DNA of 35,268 nt from Rhodopila sp. (GTDB lineage: Bacteria; Pseudomonadota; Alphaproteobacteria; Acetobacterales; Acetobacteraceae). Positions within the stretch are counted from its first letter, which is position 1; each line of letters opens with the position of its first letter. Shown here in pieces: positions 22,455-35,268 of this stretch. The notes under the pieces were generated by a model. That model saw nothing but the letters and a program-made list of their open reading frames with translations, made no database searches and was not told the DNA's origin. A program made the position numbers and the translations under genes. Location of the stretch: assembly GCA_031291715.1 (NCBI GenBank), contig JARLIN010000315.1, forward strand, positions 1-35,268. The letters run 5' to 3'.

Positions 22455-23208
22455 AGCGACCGGCAGCGCGACGCTGGTCGGCGCCGGACCCGGCGACCCC
22501 GATCTGCTGACGCTGCGCGCGGTGAAGGCCATCCAGCGCGCCGACGCTGTGTTGTTTGATGCGTTGATCGATCCCTCGATCCTGGACCTCGCGCGTCCGG
22601 ATGCGCGGCGGATCGATGTCGGCAAACGCTGCGGACGGCACGCGATGAACCAGGCCGCGATCAACCGGCTGATCGTGACGTTGGCCCAGTCCGGCGCTCA
22701 TGTGGTCCGGCTGAAGGGCGGCGATCCGTTCGTGTTCGGCCGCGGCGGCGAAGAACTCGACAGCTTGCGTGCCGCCGGCGTGCCGGTTGAGGTGGTGCCT
22801 GGCGTCACCGCCGCTTGCGCCGCCGCGGCCAGTTTACAGATTCCGCTGACGCATCGCGATGTGGCCCGGTCTCTGCACTTCGTCACGGGGCACGGCAGCG
22901 ACGGCGCGGTCCCGGCGCATGACTGGCGCGCCCTGGCGGCCAGCGGCGGCACTATCGCCGCCTATATGGCGAGCAAGACGTTACGAAGCGTCGCGGCCAG
23001 CCTGATCGATGCCGGCCTGCCGCCTTCAACCCCGGCCGTGGCGGTGGGGAATGCATCTCGGCTGAACGAGGCTCATTGGCATGGAACGTTGGGCACTCTG
23101 CCGGACTTACTGGACGCCAGCCGGCCCGATGGCCCAACCCTGGTGCTGATCGGTACGGTGGTCGCGCTGGCGCGCACGATTCAAGAAACCGCACGCCTCG
23201 CCGCATGA
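22432..23208 (+). CDS. cobA: Uroporphyrinogen-III C-methyltransferase (SUMT)
   Basis: Makes precorrin-2, the precursor of siroheme needed by NasB. The 258 residues carry the SAM-methyltransferase motifs VGAGPGDPDLLTLRAVKAIQ near the N terminus, RLKGGDPFVFGRGGEE in the middle and VPGVTAACAAAASL. The ORF track begins at 22312 inside nasC. The ATG at 22432 has GAGGAG upstream and starts MFACPRSKATGSATLVG. It overlaps the nasC end by 23 bases, so the two are co-translated. It carries only the methyltransferase and not the CysG dehydrogenase/chelatase part, so those steps must be encoded elsewhere. The next gene is convergent, 8 bases away. Confidence 0.95.
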   Translation: MFACPRSKATGSATLVGAGPGDPDLLTLRAVKAIQRADAVLFDALIDPSILDLARPDARRIDVGKRCGRHAMNQAAINRLIVTLAQSGAHVVRLKGGDPFVFGRGGEELDSLRAAGVPVEVVPGVTAACAAAASLQIPLTHRDVARSLHFVTGHGSDGAVPAHDWRALAASGGTIAAYMASKTLRSVAASLIDAGLPPSTPAVAVGNASRLNEAHWHGTLGTLPDLLDASRPDGPTLVLIGTVVALARTIQETARLAA

Positions 23209-26813: not shown

Positions 26814-26888
26814 ACACATAACACGGCCCGGATCGGCGTCCGTGAAAAACAGGCCCCGCAACAGGTGCCGCATAATACAGGAGGTTAC

Positions 26889-28235
26889 ATGAGGACTCAG
26901 TCAAGAAGAGTATCCCGCCGGCAAGCCTTGAAATTCGCCGCGGCTTCGGCAGCGCTTCCGCTGGTGCACATCCGAACGGGACGGGCCGCGGGCAAGCTCT
27001 CGATCGGTTTCTGGGATCACTGGGTCCCGGAAGGCAACGAGGTCATGAAGCAGCAATGCGCTGCATTCGGTGCGGCGCACCAGGTTGAGGTGCAGCCCGA
27101 CTTCATCACATCGGTCGGGATGAAAAACATCCTGACGATTGCGGCCGAGGCCCAGGCGAAGACAGGACATGACATTCAGCAATTTCCGGGATGGGAAGTG
27201 CAGAACCACGCCGACCAGCTGGAACCGGTTGACGACGTGATGAAGCGGCTGGCCGACAAATTCGGTCCCGTCGCCGCGGCAAGCCAATACCTTTTCAATA
27301 TCAAGGGCCACTGGCTGGCGATCCCGTGCAGCGCCGGCAACCAGAACAAAGGCCCGTGTGGCCGGATCTCCGTCCTGAAGGAAGTCGCCGGGCTGGACGT
27401 CGTGAAGATGTATCCGCCCTCCGCCGACGCTACGCCAGAGGCGGACAAATGGACCTACGATGCGATGCTCAAGGCCGCCGAGGCCTGCAAGAAGGCCAAC
27501 ATGACCTTCGGCATCGGGCTGGGCACCACCCCGGATTCGGTTGACACCGCCGGATCGATGTTCGCGGCCTTTGGGGCCGAGGTCATCACCGCCAAAGGCG
27601 AGGTGAATGTCCGCTCCGACAACGTCCGCCAGGTGCTGGAATACGCACAGCAACTGGTCAAGCACCTGCCGGCGGACGCGGTCAGCTACGATGACGCGTC
27701 GAACAACCGGGCGCTGATTTCCGGCCAGAGCGCACTGATCTGGAACCCGCCATCGGCCTGGGCCGTCGCGCGGCGCGACGCACCGAAGGTCGCGGCGGAT
27801 TGCTGGACCTTCCCGGCACCGAAGGGTCCGAAGGGCCGGTTCCTGCCGCTGGGCGCGTTCTCCTGGGGAATCTGGAACTTCAGCACGAACAAGACCGCGG
27901 CCAAAGAACTGATCGAGTTCCTGTCGCAGCGGGAGAATGTCGAGGCAAGGTGCAAGGTGACCCTGGGCTATGACGTCCCGCCCTTTGCCAGCATGACCGA
28001 CTTCAAGATCTGGGACGAGGTCGAACCACCGAAAGGTACCGTTTACCACTACCCGATCCGCAAGTCTCACCATCAGGAGAACTGGATCGCCGTGGCCCCG
28101 GCGCCGCCGGAGATCGCGGTGCAGGTGTACAATCGTGGCACCTTGCCGACGATGCTGGCCAAGTTGCAAAGCGGACAGTCGATCAAGGACGTGCAGGATT
28201 GGGCGCAAGACGAGCTGGAAGGCTTCGTCCGTTAG
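26889..28235 (+). CDS. ABC transporter substrate-binding protein, paralogue 1 (family 1, UgpB/MalE-like)
   Basis: A periplasmic solute-binding protein of 448 residues, with a Tat-type signal (SRRQALKFAAASAALPLVHIRTGRAAG). The mature protein begins near KLSIGFWDHWVP. It shares a near-invariant block, SYDDASNNRALISGQSALIWNPPSAWAVARRDAP, with the two paralogues downstream. The ATG at 26889 has AGGAGG seven bases upstream, better than the ORF-track start 24 bases earlier. By overall sequence it is closer to paralogue 3 than to 2 (e.g. WEVQN, GPCGRISVLKE). The family mostly binds sugars, polyols or glycerol phosphates; the ligand is not predictable here. Confidence 0.92.
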   Translation: MRTQSRRVSRRQALKFAAASAALPLVHIRTGRAAGKLSIGFWDHWVPEGNEVMKQQCAAFGAAHQVEVQPDFITSVGMKNILTIAAEAQAKTGHDIQQFPGWEVQNHADQLEPVDDVMKRLADKFGPVAAASQYLFNIKGHWLAIPCSAGNQNKGPCGRISVLKEVAGLDVVKMYPPSADATPEADKWTYDAMLKAAEACKKANMTFGIGLGTTPDSVDTAGSMFAAFGAEVITAKGEVNVRSDNVRQVLEYAQQLVKHLPADAVSYDDASNNRALISGQSALIWNPPSAWAVARRDAPKVAADCWTFPAPKGPKGRFLPLGAFSWGIWNFSTNKTAAKELIEFLSQRENVEARCKVTLGYDVPPFASMTDFKIWDEVEPPKGTVYHYPIRKSHHQENWIAVAPAPPEIAVQVYNRGTLPTMLAKLQSGQSIKDVQDWAQDELEGFVR

Positions 28236-28555
28236 TTTACGCGTGATCGGCGCTTTCGCCCCTGTCGTGGCGCCGATCGAACGTTCTATAATTCGATCCG
28301 AGGCAAGGCCCGGCCCCCGCTGGCGCCCAGTTCGCCCTTGGATCGGGAAGGCGTCCGCCAGCGTCCTGATGTCTATCGGATAACTACCATCCCGATCGCA
28401 TGACCGGATCGTGATCCGGTCCCAATGGCTGGCTCCCGGACTTTGTCCGCGGGGCTTGCCGGCGTTTCTACAAGGCGGATCGCAACCGCCTGCTCAGCTA
28501 CAGGAGAAACACGAACAAAATACGGCCTCTGGCCGCACAGGGAGATATAAACGCC
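28236..28555 (+). other. 320-base intergenic region with two hairpins between binding-protein genes
   Basis: No gene. Just past the paralogue 1 stop, GATCGGCGC (28245-28253) and GCGCCGATC (28270-28278) form a 9-bp stem. At 28402-28421, GACCGGATC-GT-GATCCGGTC is a near-perfect palindrome. Neither is followed by a T-run, so mRNA processing or 3' protection is more likely than complete termination. A ribosome site (AGGGAG) precedes paralogue 2. Confidence 0.5.
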
Positions 28556-29902
28556 ATGATCCGCTCAAACGGACTGTCACGCCGCGGCGCCTTGAAGCTC
28601 GGGGCGGCGGCCGGCGCGCTACCGCTGGTGCATATCCGTACCGCCGGCGCCGCCGGCAAAGTAAATATCGGCTTCTGGGATCACTGGGTGCCTGGAGGCA
28701 ACGAGATCATGCAAAAGCAGGTCGATGCCTGGGCCGCACAGAACAAGGTCGAGGTTCAGGCCGACTTCATCACCGGCAACGGCAACAAACTCAGTATGAC
28801 CGGTGCGGCCGAAGCGCAGGCGAAGGCAGGCCATGACGCGCTGACCTTCTTCAACTGGGACGTGCATAACTATGCCGATGCGCTTGAGCCAATCGACGAT
28901 GTGATGGCCCGTCTGGTGGCCGCCAACGGCGAGGTGACGCAAACCTGCGCGTATCTGGCGAAAGTCAAAAACAAGTGGGTCGCGGTACCGACCAGCAGTG
29001 GAACCCAGACCAAGCCACCCTGCGCCCGGATCAGTTGGTTCAAGACGCAAGGCCTCGACGTTCAGGCGATGTATCCAGCCCATCCCGGCAAGACGGATTT
29101 ACAGGATAGCTGGACCTGGGACGCATTCCTCAAATATGCCGAGGCCGCCAAGAAGAGCGGCATGACCTTTGGGCTGGGATTGGGCGGCAACAACAATACC
29201 GACGCCATCGACACGCACGGCGCCCTGTTCCGGGCCTTCGGCGCCACATTGATCGACAGCGAAGGCGCCATCCAGCTGAAATCGGATGCGGTGCACCAGG
29301 TGCTGGAGTACGCCCAGCGTCTGGTGAAATTCTACCCGGACGACGCGGTCAGCTACGATGATGCCTCGAACAACAGAGCCCTGATTTCGGGTAAGTCGGC
29401 GCTGATTTTCAACCCGCCCTCGGCCTGGGCCGTTGCAAAGCGGGATGCCCCCGCGGTGGCAGCGGACTGCTGGACCTTCCCCGCCCCGAAGGGGCCGAAG
29501 GGCCGGTTCGTTCCGACGCTCAGCTTTTTCTGGGGCGTTTACAGCTTCAGCAATAACAAGAGCGCCGCCAAGGAACTGATTGAATATCTGATGCAACGCC
29601 CGCAGGTAGAGGCCCGCTGCAACGCGACCGACGGCTACGACATCCCGCCGTATGCGAAGATGATTGATTTCAAGATTTGGGAGGAAGTCGAGCCGCCGAA
29701 GGGAACGGTTTATAATTACCCGATCCGGCCGTGGTCCGACGAGCAGCCGAGCCTTACTGCGTCCGAGGCCACGCCGGACGTGGCGGTGCAAATCTACAAT
29801 CGGGCGATCCATAACCAGATGCTCGCGCGCCTGAAAGACGGCCAGACGATCCCGCAGGTCATCGCGTGGGCGCAAGATGAGATTGGGGGCTTCCTTCGAT
29901 AG
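28556..29902 (+). CDS. ABC transporter substrate-binding protein, paralogue 2
   Basis: 448 residues, the same length as paralogue 1. Tat-type signal LSRRGALKLGAAAGALPLVHIRTAGAAG, mature start near KVNIGFWDHWVPGGNE. It is the most divergent of the three in the first half (FFNWDVHNYADALEPIDDV, TKPPCARISWFKTQGLDVQAMYPAHPG). It keeps the common core SYDDASNNRALISGKSALIFNPPSAWAVAKRDAP and the C-terminal motif PKGTVYNYPIRPW. Divergence in the probable ligand-facing half with a conserved core suggests a different but related ligand. It has no permease genes of its own, so it presumably uses the shared ones downstream. Confidence 0.92.
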   Translation: MIRSNGLSRRGALKLGAAAGALPLVHIRTAGAAGKVNIGFWDHWVPGGNEIMQKQVDAWAAQNKVEVQADFITGNGNKLSMTGAAEAQAKAGHDALTFFNWDVHNYADALEPIDDVMARLVAANGEVTQTCAYLAKVKNKWVAVPTSSGTQTKPPCARISWFKTQGLDVQAMYPAHPGKTDLQDSWTWDAFLKYAEAAKKSGMTFGLGLGGNNNTDAIDTHGALFRAFGATLIDSEGAIQLKSDAVHQVLEYAQRLVKFYPDDAVSYDDASNNRALISGKSALIFNPPSAWAVAKRDAPAVAADCWTFPAPKGPKGRFVPTLSFFWGVYSFSNNKSAAKELIEYLMQRPQVEARCNATDGYDIPPYAKMIDFKIWEEVEPPKGTVYNYPIRPWSDEQPSLTASEATPDVAVQIYNRAIHNQMLARLKDGQTIPQVIAWAQDEIGGFLR

Positions 29903-30358
29903 CAGCGGCCCTATCGGATCGGCCGGTCGGAACGGCCGATCCGACGCTTATCGCCGCCGCTTCTCGTGAACGGTCCCGTTGGATACCATATGACGGAAAA
30001 GATCGGGCCGAGGCGGAAGCGGCGTTGCGCGCCGTCACGGCAAAGGTTAGCGTGAACATCTTGGAACAGAGTATCAGGCCGACAGCCGACCTGGTGCATT
30101 GACGGGACGCCTGAGCCGCTCAAAAGGGCAGGCCAATATAGAAACGCGGTGGCATAAGCCCCCGCGACTGGGAGATATGTTCATGGGTGCGCGTTCGCGT
30201 CACAGTGACATCACATCGGAACGGTGGGGCGCGCCCTTTGCCGGCAGATACTCCTCCCGCGCACACGGACGAATGTCCATACGTAAACCGCTTGGGGCGG
30301 CGGCATAAGCCTGAGAACAAGCAGCCTCAAACCAACGAATATTCAGGAAGGATGCGAC
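29903..30358 (+). other. 456-base intergenic region before the third binding-protein gene
   Basis: No credible gene; small ORFs here lack ribosome sites and coding character. The one clear structure is the 12-bp hairpin at 29914-29944. GGCATAAGCC occurs twice (near 30150 and 30301). The gap is long enough to hold a separate promoter for paralogue 3 and the transporter genes, but I could not identify boxes. Confidence 0.45.
29914..29944 (+). terminator. 12-bp hairpin after paralogue 2
   Basis: TCGGATCGGCCG (29914-29925), loop GTCGGAA, and CGGCCGATCCGA (29933-29944) form a perfect stem, 11 bases past the stop. It lacks a T-run; partial termination or protection of the 3' end is likely. Confidence 0.5.
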
Positions 30359-31726
30359 GTGACCACGGCTAAGACGACGAACAGGAAAACGACCGGCAAG
30401 ATGACCCGCCGCAGCGCGCTTAAGCTCGCTGCCGCCTCGGCCGCGCTGCCGCTGGTGCACATCCGCTCCGGCCGAGCGGCAGGGAAGCTTTCGATGGCTT
30501 TTTGGGACCACTGGGTGCCTTCGGGCAACGCGGTGATGCAGAAGCAGGTCGATGCGTGGGCGGCCAAGAACCAGGTCGAGGTTCAGGTCGACTTCATCAC
30601 CTCTGTCGGCCAGAAGAACATCCTTACGATCGCGGCCGAGGCTCAGGCCAAGACCGGCCACGACATGCAGGCTTTCCCAACCTGGGAAGTGCAAAACAAC
30701 GCCGAGTTGCTGGAACCGATCGACGACGTGATGAAGCGCCTGACCGACAAGTACGGCCCGGTGAACGCGGTTTGCGACTATCTGGCGAAGGTCAAGGGTC
30801 ACTGGATGGCCGTGCCCACAAGTTCCGGCACGCAGTACAAGGGCCCGTGCGGCCGCATCAGCGTCCTGAAGGAAAAAGCCGGCCTGGATGTTGTCTCGAT
30901 GTATCCGGCGAAGCCAGGGCACACCGCGGCGTCCGATGCCTGGACCTGGGATGCGCATTACACGGCAGCGGAAGCATGTGCGAAAGCCGGCATGCCGTTT
31001 GCCATCGGGCTGGGCCAGACCACGGACTCGGTGGACACCGCCGGCGCGCTGTTCCGGGCTTATGGTGCCGAACTGGTGGACAAGGATGGCAACATCACCG
31101 TCAAGTCCGACAAGGTCCGGGCCGTGTTGGAACACGGTCAGAAACTGGTGAAGGTGCTGCCGGCCGATGCCGTCAGCTATGACGATGCGTCCAACAACCG
31201 AGCCCTGATCTCGGGGCAGAGCGCGCTGGTCTGGAACCCGCCCTCCGCCTGGGCCGTAGCCAAGCGCGATGCACCGAAGGTGGCGGAAGATTGTTGGACG
31301 TTCTCGGCCCCGTCCGGACCGGAAGGACGTTTTCTGCCCTATCTTCCCTATTTCTGGGGGGTCTGGTCGTTCAGCAAGAACAAGACAGCAGCAAAAGAGC
31401 TAATCGAGGCTCTGCTGCAGCGCGAACCCGTCGAGGCACGCTGCACGGAGGTTCTCGGCTACGACGTGCCGCCGTTCGACTCGATGCTCGATTTCAAGGT
31501 CTGGGAAGATGTCGGGCCGCCGAAGGGTACCGTCTATAATTACCCGATCCGGCCGTTCCACAACGCGAAGGCGCATATCGCGGCGCTGCCCGCGCCGCCG
31601 GACATCGCGGTCCAGATCTACAATCGCGGCACTATGCCTACCATGTTGGCAAAACTGAAAAGCGGCCAGTCGATCGATCAGGTCATCGCCTGGGCTAACG
31701 ACGAATTGGAAGGCTTCGCCCGCTGA
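30359..31726 (+). CDS. ABC transporter substrate-binding protein, paralogue 3
   Basis: 455 residues from a GTG start with AGGAAGGA upstream. The Tat-type signal (MTRRSALKLAAASAALPLVHIRSGRAAG) is preceded by a Lys/Thr-rich extension, so an internal ATG at MTRRSALK is an alternative start. The mature start KLSMAFWDHWVPSGN and the segments FPTWEVQNNAELLEPIDDVMKRL and YKGPCGRISVLKE make it closest to paralogue 1. The shared core is SYDDASNNRALISGQSALVWNPPSAWAVAKRDAP. It is directly followed by the permease genes, the usual position for the cognate binding protein. Confidence 0.93.
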   Translation: MTTAKTTNRKTTGKMTRRSALKLAAASAALPLVHIRSGRAAGKLSMAFWDHWVPSGNAVMQKQVDAWAAKNQVEVQVDFITSVGQKNILTIAAEAQAKTGHDMQAFPTWEVQNNAELLEPIDDVMKRLTDKYGPVNAVCDYLAKVKGHWMAVPTSSGTQYKGPCGRISVLKEKAGLDVVSMYPAKPGHTAASDAWTWDAHYTAAEACAKAGMPFAIGLGQTTDSVDTAGALFRAYGAELVDKDGNITVKSDKVRAVLEHGQKLVKVLPADAVSYDDASNNRALISGQSALVWNPPSAWAVAKRDAPKVAEDCWTFSAPSGPEGRFLPYLPYFWGVWSFSKNKTAAKELIEALLQREPVEARCTEVLGYDVPPFDSMLDFKVWEDVGPPKGTVYNYPIRPFHNAKAHIAALPAPPDIAVQIYNRGTMPTMLAKLKSGQSIDQVIAWANDELEGFAR

Positions 31727-33632: not shown

Positions 33633-33700
33633 ACTTAGGACAACGATAGATGGCCGGGTCGAACCCGGCCATGAACCCCAACCGAGGAAACGGAGCAACC

Positions 33701-34804
33701 ATGGCTGAAGTGTCCTGCCGCAAAGTCGTCAAGGAATATGACGCCGGCGTGCAAGCGGTAAAAGGGATCGACCTGGACATCGCCGACCATGAGTTTGTCG
33801 TGCTGGTCGGTCCGTCCGGCTGCGGCAAGTCAACCACCTTGCGCATGATCGCCGGGCTGGAGGAGATCACCACCGGGGAAATCTGGATTGACGGCGACGT
33901 GGTCAACGACGTCCCGCCGCGCGACCGCGACATCGCGATGGTCTTTCAGAACTATGCGCTGTATCCGCACATGAGCGTCTTCGACAACATGGCGTTCGGG
34001 CTGAAGCTGCGGAAATTTCCGAAGGACGAGATCAAGCGGCGGGTGGATGAGGCTGCACGCATCCTCGATATCGTGCCATTGCTCGACCGGAAACCTCGGG
34101 CGCTGTCCGGTGGTCAGCGGCAGCGCGTGGCGATGGGACGGGCGATCGTGCGGAACCCGAAGGTGTTCCTGTTCGATGAGCCACTATCGAACCTGGATGC
34201 CAAGTTGCGCGTGCAGATGCGGACAGAGATCAAGAAGGTTCACCAGACCGTTCGCACGACAACAGTCTATGTGACGCACGATCAGATCGAAGCCATGACA
34301 TTGGCCGACCGAGTCGTCGTGATGAACCACGGCGTCATCGAGCAGGTTGGAACGCCGAACGACCTGTATCACCATCCGGCAACCCGCTTTGTCGCCGGCT
34401 TTATCGGCTCCCCGGCCATGAATTTCCTGCCGTGCCGCGTGCAGGACGGCGTGAATGGCGGCGTGGCCATCCGGTTGACGGACAGCATCACCGTGCCGGT
34501 CCCGCCCGCCCGCGCCGAACGCTATGGCAAGTTCAAAGGCAAGGAGATGGTGCTGGGCCTCCGGCCGGAGCATCTTTTCGAATACCATGAACAGGGAAAG
34601 CCCAACTGGACCCGCATCGATCTCCCGGTTGACGTCGTGGAGCCGATGGGGATGGAGACGATGGTTCATTTCTTCGTCGATGGAGCCCCGGTCTGCGCCC
34701 GCGTCGATCCGGCCACGCATGCCGCTCCGGGCGAGATGCTGCCGCTGACGGCGGACCTGAACCAGATGCATCTGATGGAAGCTGACACCGGCAAGGTGGT
34801 GTGA
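33701..34804 (+). CDS. ABC transporter ATP-binding protein (MalK/UgpC-like)
   Basis: A 367-residue ATPase energising the importer. Walker A GPSGCGKST, Q-loop FQNYALYPHM, signature LSGGQRQRVAMGRAI, Walker B VFLFDEPLSNLDAK and switch His in YVTHDQIEAMT are all present. They are followed by a C-terminal TOBE-type regulatory domain (about 235-367). The ORF track starts at 33650; the ATG at 33701 has GAGGAAACGGAG upstream and gives the usual MAEVSCRKVVKEYD start. It is the last gene of the importer operon, with a strong hairpin 78 bases after the stop. Confidence 0.95.
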   Translation: MAEVSCRKVVKEYDAGVQAVKGIDLDIADHEFVVLVGPSGCGKSTTLRMIAGLEEITTGEIWIDGDVVNDVPPRDRDIAMVFQNYALYPHMSVFDNMAFGLKLRKFPKDEIKRRVDEAARILDIVPLLDRKPRALSGGQRQRVAMGRAIVRNPKVFLFDEPLSNLDAKLRVQMRTEIKKVHQTVRTTTVYVTHDQIEAMTLADRVVVMNHGVIEQVGTPNDLYHHPATRFVAGFIGSPAMNFLPCRVQDGVNGGVAIRLTDSITVPVPPARAERYGKFKGKEMVLGLRPEHLFEYHEQGKPNWTRIDLPVDVVEPMGMETMVHFFVDGAPVCARVDPATHAAPGEMLPLTADLNQMHLMEADTGKVV

Positions 34805-34882
34805 CCGGACATCACCTGGAGCATGATCGCGCTGGGCGGAACGTCCGGAGCGCGTGAATCGTGCGATCGAACAAAGAGTTAG

Positions 34883-34920
34883 ACCACCTTCAGGCTGTGC
34901 AGTCAGCCTGAAGGTGGTTT
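34883..34920 (+). terminator. Strong hairpin terminator after the ABC operon
   Basis: ACCACCTTCAGGCT (34883-34896), an eight-base loop, and AGCCTGAAGGTGGT (34905-34918), a perfect 14-bp stem followed by TT. Although the T-run is short, this is the best intrinsic-terminator candidate in the window. Confidence 0.75.
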
Positions 34921-34921
34921 C

Positions 34922-34974
34922 GTGTCCCGAATCTGAAGTTCGCCATGATGCGACGAACTTCGGGGGCAGGACAC
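34922..34974. repeat. 53-base imperfect palindrome, possible REP/MITE-like element
   Basis: GTGTCC ... GAAGTTCG (34935-34942) pairs with CGAACTTC (34954-34961) ... GGACAC. The outer six and inner eight base pairs are perfect and a loosely pairing stretch lies between them. It lies between the terminator and the Ldh_2 gene. It may be a dispersed repeat or the end of a mobile element; nothing here encodes a transposase. Confidence 0.4.
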
Positions 34975-34975
34975 T

Positions 34976-35051
34976 TGGTGCGGGCCTCCGCTCTTGTGTG
35001 TTGAGCGCTTCGGACGATAAACGGCACATCAGCGTCGAGAGGCCCGCACCA
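34976..35051 (+). promoter_or_regulatory. 13-bp perfect inverted repeat abutting the dehydrogenase start codon
   Basis: TGGTGCGGGCCTC (34976-34988) is the exact complement of GAGGCCCGCACCA (35039-35051); the last base is the A of the ATG. The arms are 50 bases apart. If transcribed, the stem would cover the ribosome-binding region; as DNA it could be a split operator. The start has no better ribosome site than the GAGAGG that overlaps the arm. Confidence 0.5.
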
Positions 35052-35268
35052 TGGCATACGAAACCACAACCGTTCCGACGGATATCCTGCGCGGCTTCAT
35101 TGCCGACATCTTCAACGCCGCCGGCTGCGAAAGGACGGAAAGCGAGCAGATCGCGCATCATCTGCTGTCCGCCAACCTGACGGGCCATGACAGCCACGGG
35201 GTCATCCGGACGCCGCGCTACATCATCTGGCTGCAAGAGGGCAAAGTCCGGGCCGGGCAGACGCTGAC
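35051..35268 (+). CDS. Ldh_2 (malate/L-lactate/ureidoglycolate) family dehydrogenase, 5' part
   Basis: The first 72 codons of a gene running off the window. MAYETTTVPTDILRGFIADIFNAAGCERTESEQIAHHLLSANLTGHDSHGVIRTPRYI shows the family's N-terminal helices and the conserved DSHGV.R.P.Y motif carrying the catalytic-site His. These are NAD(P)-dependent oxidoreductases acting on 2-hydroxy acids, ureidoglycolate or diketo-sugar acids. Its position beside a sugar-type importer suggests a catabolic role for the imported compound, which is inference. It is absent from the ORF track because it has no stop in the window. Confidence 0.88.
   Translation, partial: MAYETTTVPTDILRGFIADIFNAAGCERTESEQIAHHLLSANLTGHDSHGVIRTPRYIIWLQEGKVRAGQTL

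Follow-up and report, generated by a model that had tools for sequence, protein, structure and literature searches.

A genome-specific inverted repeat over the Ldh_2 start codon of a Rhodopila genome, and the hairpin it may form in read-through mRNA

The window analysed here is a stretch of 35 268 nt from a Rhodopila (Acetobacteraceae) genome, whose closest named relatives are Rhodopila globiformis, a Rhodopila sp. assembly and other Acetobacteraceae assemblies. At its 3′-end lies a gene of the malate/L-lactate dehydrogenase family, Ldh_2 (35051–35268, forward strand), which is truncated by the contig end at 35268, leaving an open-ended frame of 72 residues. Alignments of the orthologous proteins start with residue 1 at its ATG and indicate that the start codon is correctly placed. 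The genes before Ldh_2 encode three solute-binding proteins in a row (26865, 28556 and 30359), two permeases and a MalK-type ATPase. The ABC-transporter ATPase gene (MalK/UgpC type, 33650–34804, forward strand) is the 5′ neighbour of Ldh_2 here and in many relatives, among which this gene order is widespread, and a DNA match to the Ldh_2 region was found in 20 of the 33 genomes of the genus. From 26865 to 31726, the three solute-binding-protein genes stand in tandem ahead of one permease set and one ATPase.

A perfect inverted repeat covers the start of Ldh_2. Its left arm (TGGTGCGGGCCTC, 34976–34988) and right arm (GAGGCCCGCACCA, 35039–35051), both given on the forward strand, are 13 nt long, 100% complementary and 50 nt apart, and the spacer between them (34989–35038, forward strand) contains a CGCT/AGCG stem extension and a promoter-like pair, TTGTGT/GATAAA. 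Base 35051, the end of the right arm, is the A of the Ldh_2 ATG, and the same arm includes GAGG at 35039–35042, 8 nt 5′ of the ATG, which is a plausible Shine–Dalgarno (SD) sequence of Ldh_2. The sequence-only reading had described a 13-bp perfect repeat with 50-base spacing at 34976–35051, whose right arm extends over the ribosome-binding region up to the A of the ATG; this description is borne out in full. The contig stops 217 bp past the right arm and has poly-G junk at its opposite end, as might be the case if the repeat were an assembly artefact near a contig end, e.g. a chimeric inverted read; however, the inverted segment is just 13 bp long and both of its flanks are sensible (a dispersed repeat on one side and the Ldh_2 frame on the other), and an artefact is hardly credible. 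The interrupted poly-G/poly-C runs at the contig start (16–136) are probably sequencing or assembly junk.

The gap between the ATPase and Ldh_2 genes is 246 nt in the window, because members of two dispersed repeat families, A and B, occupy it. In the four nearest relatives which keep this gene pair, the distance from the ATPase stop codon to the Ldh_2 start is 27, 25, 55 and 37 nt, and no inverted repeat of at least 9 nt was found in their gaps. Both families occur as scattered copies here as well as in some further Rhodopila genomes. Repeat A (34816–34918, forward strand, ∼100 bp) ends in a 15-bp perfect hairpin at 34883–34918, and its family was matched in 16 of the 33 genus genomes (L041–L045 and L164–L171 among the loci). 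It combines a hairpin module with one of 56 nt, the latter being tandemly repeated in some genomes (e.g. G017:C121).

Repeat B (34922–34975, forward strand) was defined by aligning own-genome matches, of which the query 34870–35060 gave 52. It is a 54-nt internal-deletion derivative of a MITE-like element, the full 127-bp form of which has two imperfect palindromes and a linker (GTGTCCCGAATCTGAAG...CAGGACAC); the deletion joined the outer (left) end of the left palindrome to the outer (right) end of the right one, and an imperfect palindrome spans 34922–34974 of the gap. The termini of the element are GTGTCC..GGACAC, and several copies have a TA at either flank (loci L009–L040 among those seen). 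The family is present in G007, G009, G015, G017 and G018 of the genus, with 34 matches in G000, 29 in G007 and 31 in G017. Copies number in the dozens here and in two further Rhodopila genomes, and are fewer in three more. With many dispersed copies, terminal inverted repeats and TA flanks, repeat B has the properties of a MITE, in which the target duplication would be a putative one. Like the Correia and RUP MITEs (PMC2229807) and REP elements, it is short, non-coding, palindromic and dispersed in dozens of copies, and the TA on both sides of RUP and Correia is often seen in repeat B as well; the start-codon inverted repeat itself is not part of repeat B. A RAYT/REP origin of repeat B was rejected, because no Y1_Tnp gene (the REP-associated Y1 transposase) was found in this assembly. 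Among the listed titles and abstracts, none on Rhodopila repeats was evident.

The first base of the left arm directly follows the last base of repeat B. We considered whether insertion of repeat B regularly gives rise to the start-codon repeat and rejected this: the other copies have no such inverted repeat at their edge (7 nt at most), hence insertion does not as a rule create an arm of this kind. In G014, the closest relative as judged by this region, the DNA match begins with the right arm, at query base 64, which indicates that the right arm lies in an ordinary ribosome-binding region and that the left arm is peculiar to this genome. The whole 76-bp feature has no match elsewhere in its own genome, nor in 199 further genomes of the family; that it belongs to a dispersed repeat was likewise rejected, since there is no second copy in the genome and the other family genomes give partial matches of 25–43 nt only.

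Among orthologues with an ATG start, the arms of any inverted repeat spanning the start measure 10 nt at most, and roughly half of these orthologues lack one of 6 nt or more; the left arm was not seen in orthologues. The check proposed in the sequence-only reading, that the same repeat be sought upstream of orthologues, thus came out negative for all orthologues examined, and as that reading itself held that a lack of conservation would weaken both an RNA model and an operator model, both are weakened. The best orthologue is ∼82% identical at the DNA level, so a feature kept only in very close relatives would escape this comparison. Several distant relatives have longer gaps containing palindromes at other places and of other sequences, hence the ATPase–Ldh_2 gap seems tolerant of palindromes.

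Markov simulations at the composition of the window gave an expectation of 0.13–0.15 inverted repeats per window (arms of at least 13 nt, spacer up to 100 nt), and related loci totalling 303 kb contain such repeats (spacers of 20–100 nt) at ∼1.2 per 35 kb, in a sample that is biased because several of them fall in the same ATPase–Ldh_2 gap. When the model rate is scaled to the start-codon regions of ∼25 genes, it falls to ∼0.004 per window, by a criterion chosen post hoc. The window holds three other perfect inverted repeats of at least 13 nt, poly-G junk excluded (338–385, 22738–22830 and 34883–34918), the last of which shares the gap with the start-codon repeat. The repeat at 338–385 is a hairpin with a perfect stem of 22 bp and a loop of 4 nt. 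The start-codon repeat exceeds the chance expectation only locally. These rates, together with the lack of conservation, would suit a chance inverted repeat without any effect on expression, e.g. if operon transcripts end upstream of it. The strong hairpin at 34883–34918 has no T-run after it, yet it might terminate the operon transcript, in which case the start-codon hairpin would rarely form. However, a GC-rich stem of 13 + 4 bp over the SD sequence is expected to matter if it is transcribed, and the exact placement at the ATG is uncommon on the post hoc estimate. We consider a repeat without effect unlikely, though one to be reckoned with.

Folding of the RNA from 34970 to 35080 gave −44.6 kcal/mol, compared with −33.4 ± 3.7 kcal/mol for shuffled sequences (z = −3.04). 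The predicted stem has 13 + 4 bp, in which CGCT (34989–34992) and AGCG (35031–35034) pair across a 4-nt bulge. In RNA starting from the ATPase stop codon or from 34976, the predicted mean unpaired probability from SD to AUG is 0.08, i.e. both are predicted to be paired in a long transcript. The sequence-only reading had taken the arrangement as one expected for translational control, and the RNA geometry fits this; comparison with the orthologues examined does not support a control device, and the regulatory reading is upheld only in part. A predicted stem hiding SD and AUG would also be a feature of a riboswitch, an RNA thermometer or a trans-regulated leader, but an Rfam scan of the RNA gave no family above the gathering cut-off or near threshold, with microRNA matches at chance level only, and since the repeat is not conserved there is no covariation. 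A GC-rich perfect 13-bp stem is atypical of an RNA thermometer. We regard leaders of this kind as most improbable.

In phage T4, hairpins that sequester the translation start occur in read-through transcripts of genes e, soc, 49 and I-TevI (PMC3014915). For gene e the mechanism is established: internal late promoters are known, the effect has been measured, and related phages are predicted to have leaders of a similar kind (PMC3014915). At Ldh_2, as in the gene e type, SD and AUG lie in one hairpin strand with the partner strand just upstream, and long transcripts would be poorly translated. The best functional rival is therefore a selected insulator against read-through, in which a promoter between the arms gives short, well-translated transcripts and the hairpin silences long ones. 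Consistent with it, a possible promoter, TTGTGT (34994–34999)-N16-GATAAA (35016–35021), has the left arm on its upstream side and the right arm on its downstream side, and loss of the left arm raises the predicted unpaired probability from SD to AUG from 0.08 to 0.21 (RNA starting at 35022 or 35028). However, this gain is modest, and the weak −35/−10-like pair (7/12) is at background level, with 2.6 equally good positions expected per 240 bp. Compared with gene e (PMC3014915), moreover, the Ldh_2 hairpin is predicted from sequence alone and the structure is not kept among the orthologues examined. Selection for insulation is thus rather improbable. A further-reaching version, in which MITE-like insertions between the sugar-transporter operon and the dehydrogenase gene uncoupled Ldh_2, and a new start-codon hairpin plus an internal promoter freed it from read-through, would make the locus a recently evolved chromosomal analogue of gene e; this we put forward as a long shot.

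The other suggestion in the sequence-only reading, a split operator with a repressor on both arms and the DNA between them looped, finds little support. The arms are identical and in inverted orientation, and their centres are 63 bp (about six helical turns) apart, a distance compatible with looping that proves nothing. However, neither arm is palindromic by itself. A third exact copy of the arm and the one-mismatch copies which were checked all lie inside long reading frames, and thus give no sign of an operator regulon, in which the sites would recur upstream of other regulated genes. Near-copies of the arm are not clearly enriched (27, versus 14 for a reversed control), no transcription-factor domain was found among the window proteins scanned, and the repeat is absent from orthologues. 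The split-operator model is weaker still than the model based on RNA geometry, and very improbable.

Most likely, the repeat is a local peculiarity rather than a conserved switch, and an unselected hairpin that damps operon read-through RNA is the most economical account of the data. We suggest, with a probability of roughly 55%, that a genome-specific hairpin passively lowers translation of Ldh_2 from read-through mRNA. In this model, dispersed palindromic repeats enlarged the gap between the transporter and dehydrogenase genes, the right arm would be the normal ribosome-binding region of Ldh_2, and the left arm would have become complementary to it through chance or a local inverted duplication. 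If transcription of the upstream transporter operon continues into Ldh_2, the resulting mRNA would form the 13 + 4 bp hairpin over SD and AUG, and the hairpin would passively dampen translation. It would require no ligand, protein or switch, and none is indicated. Transcripts initiated between the arms would not contain the left arm and hence would not form this hairpin.

If the hairpin works, the locus would be a small example of repeat insertions reshaping an operon and detuning its last gene; as it stands, the main lesson is that a check of orthologues is needed before start-codon inverted repeats are named regulatory. In an Enhydrobacter assembly (L114, 2893–2978), a 31-bp inverted repeat of different sequence ends ∼20 nt before the Ldh_2 start, at the corresponding place.
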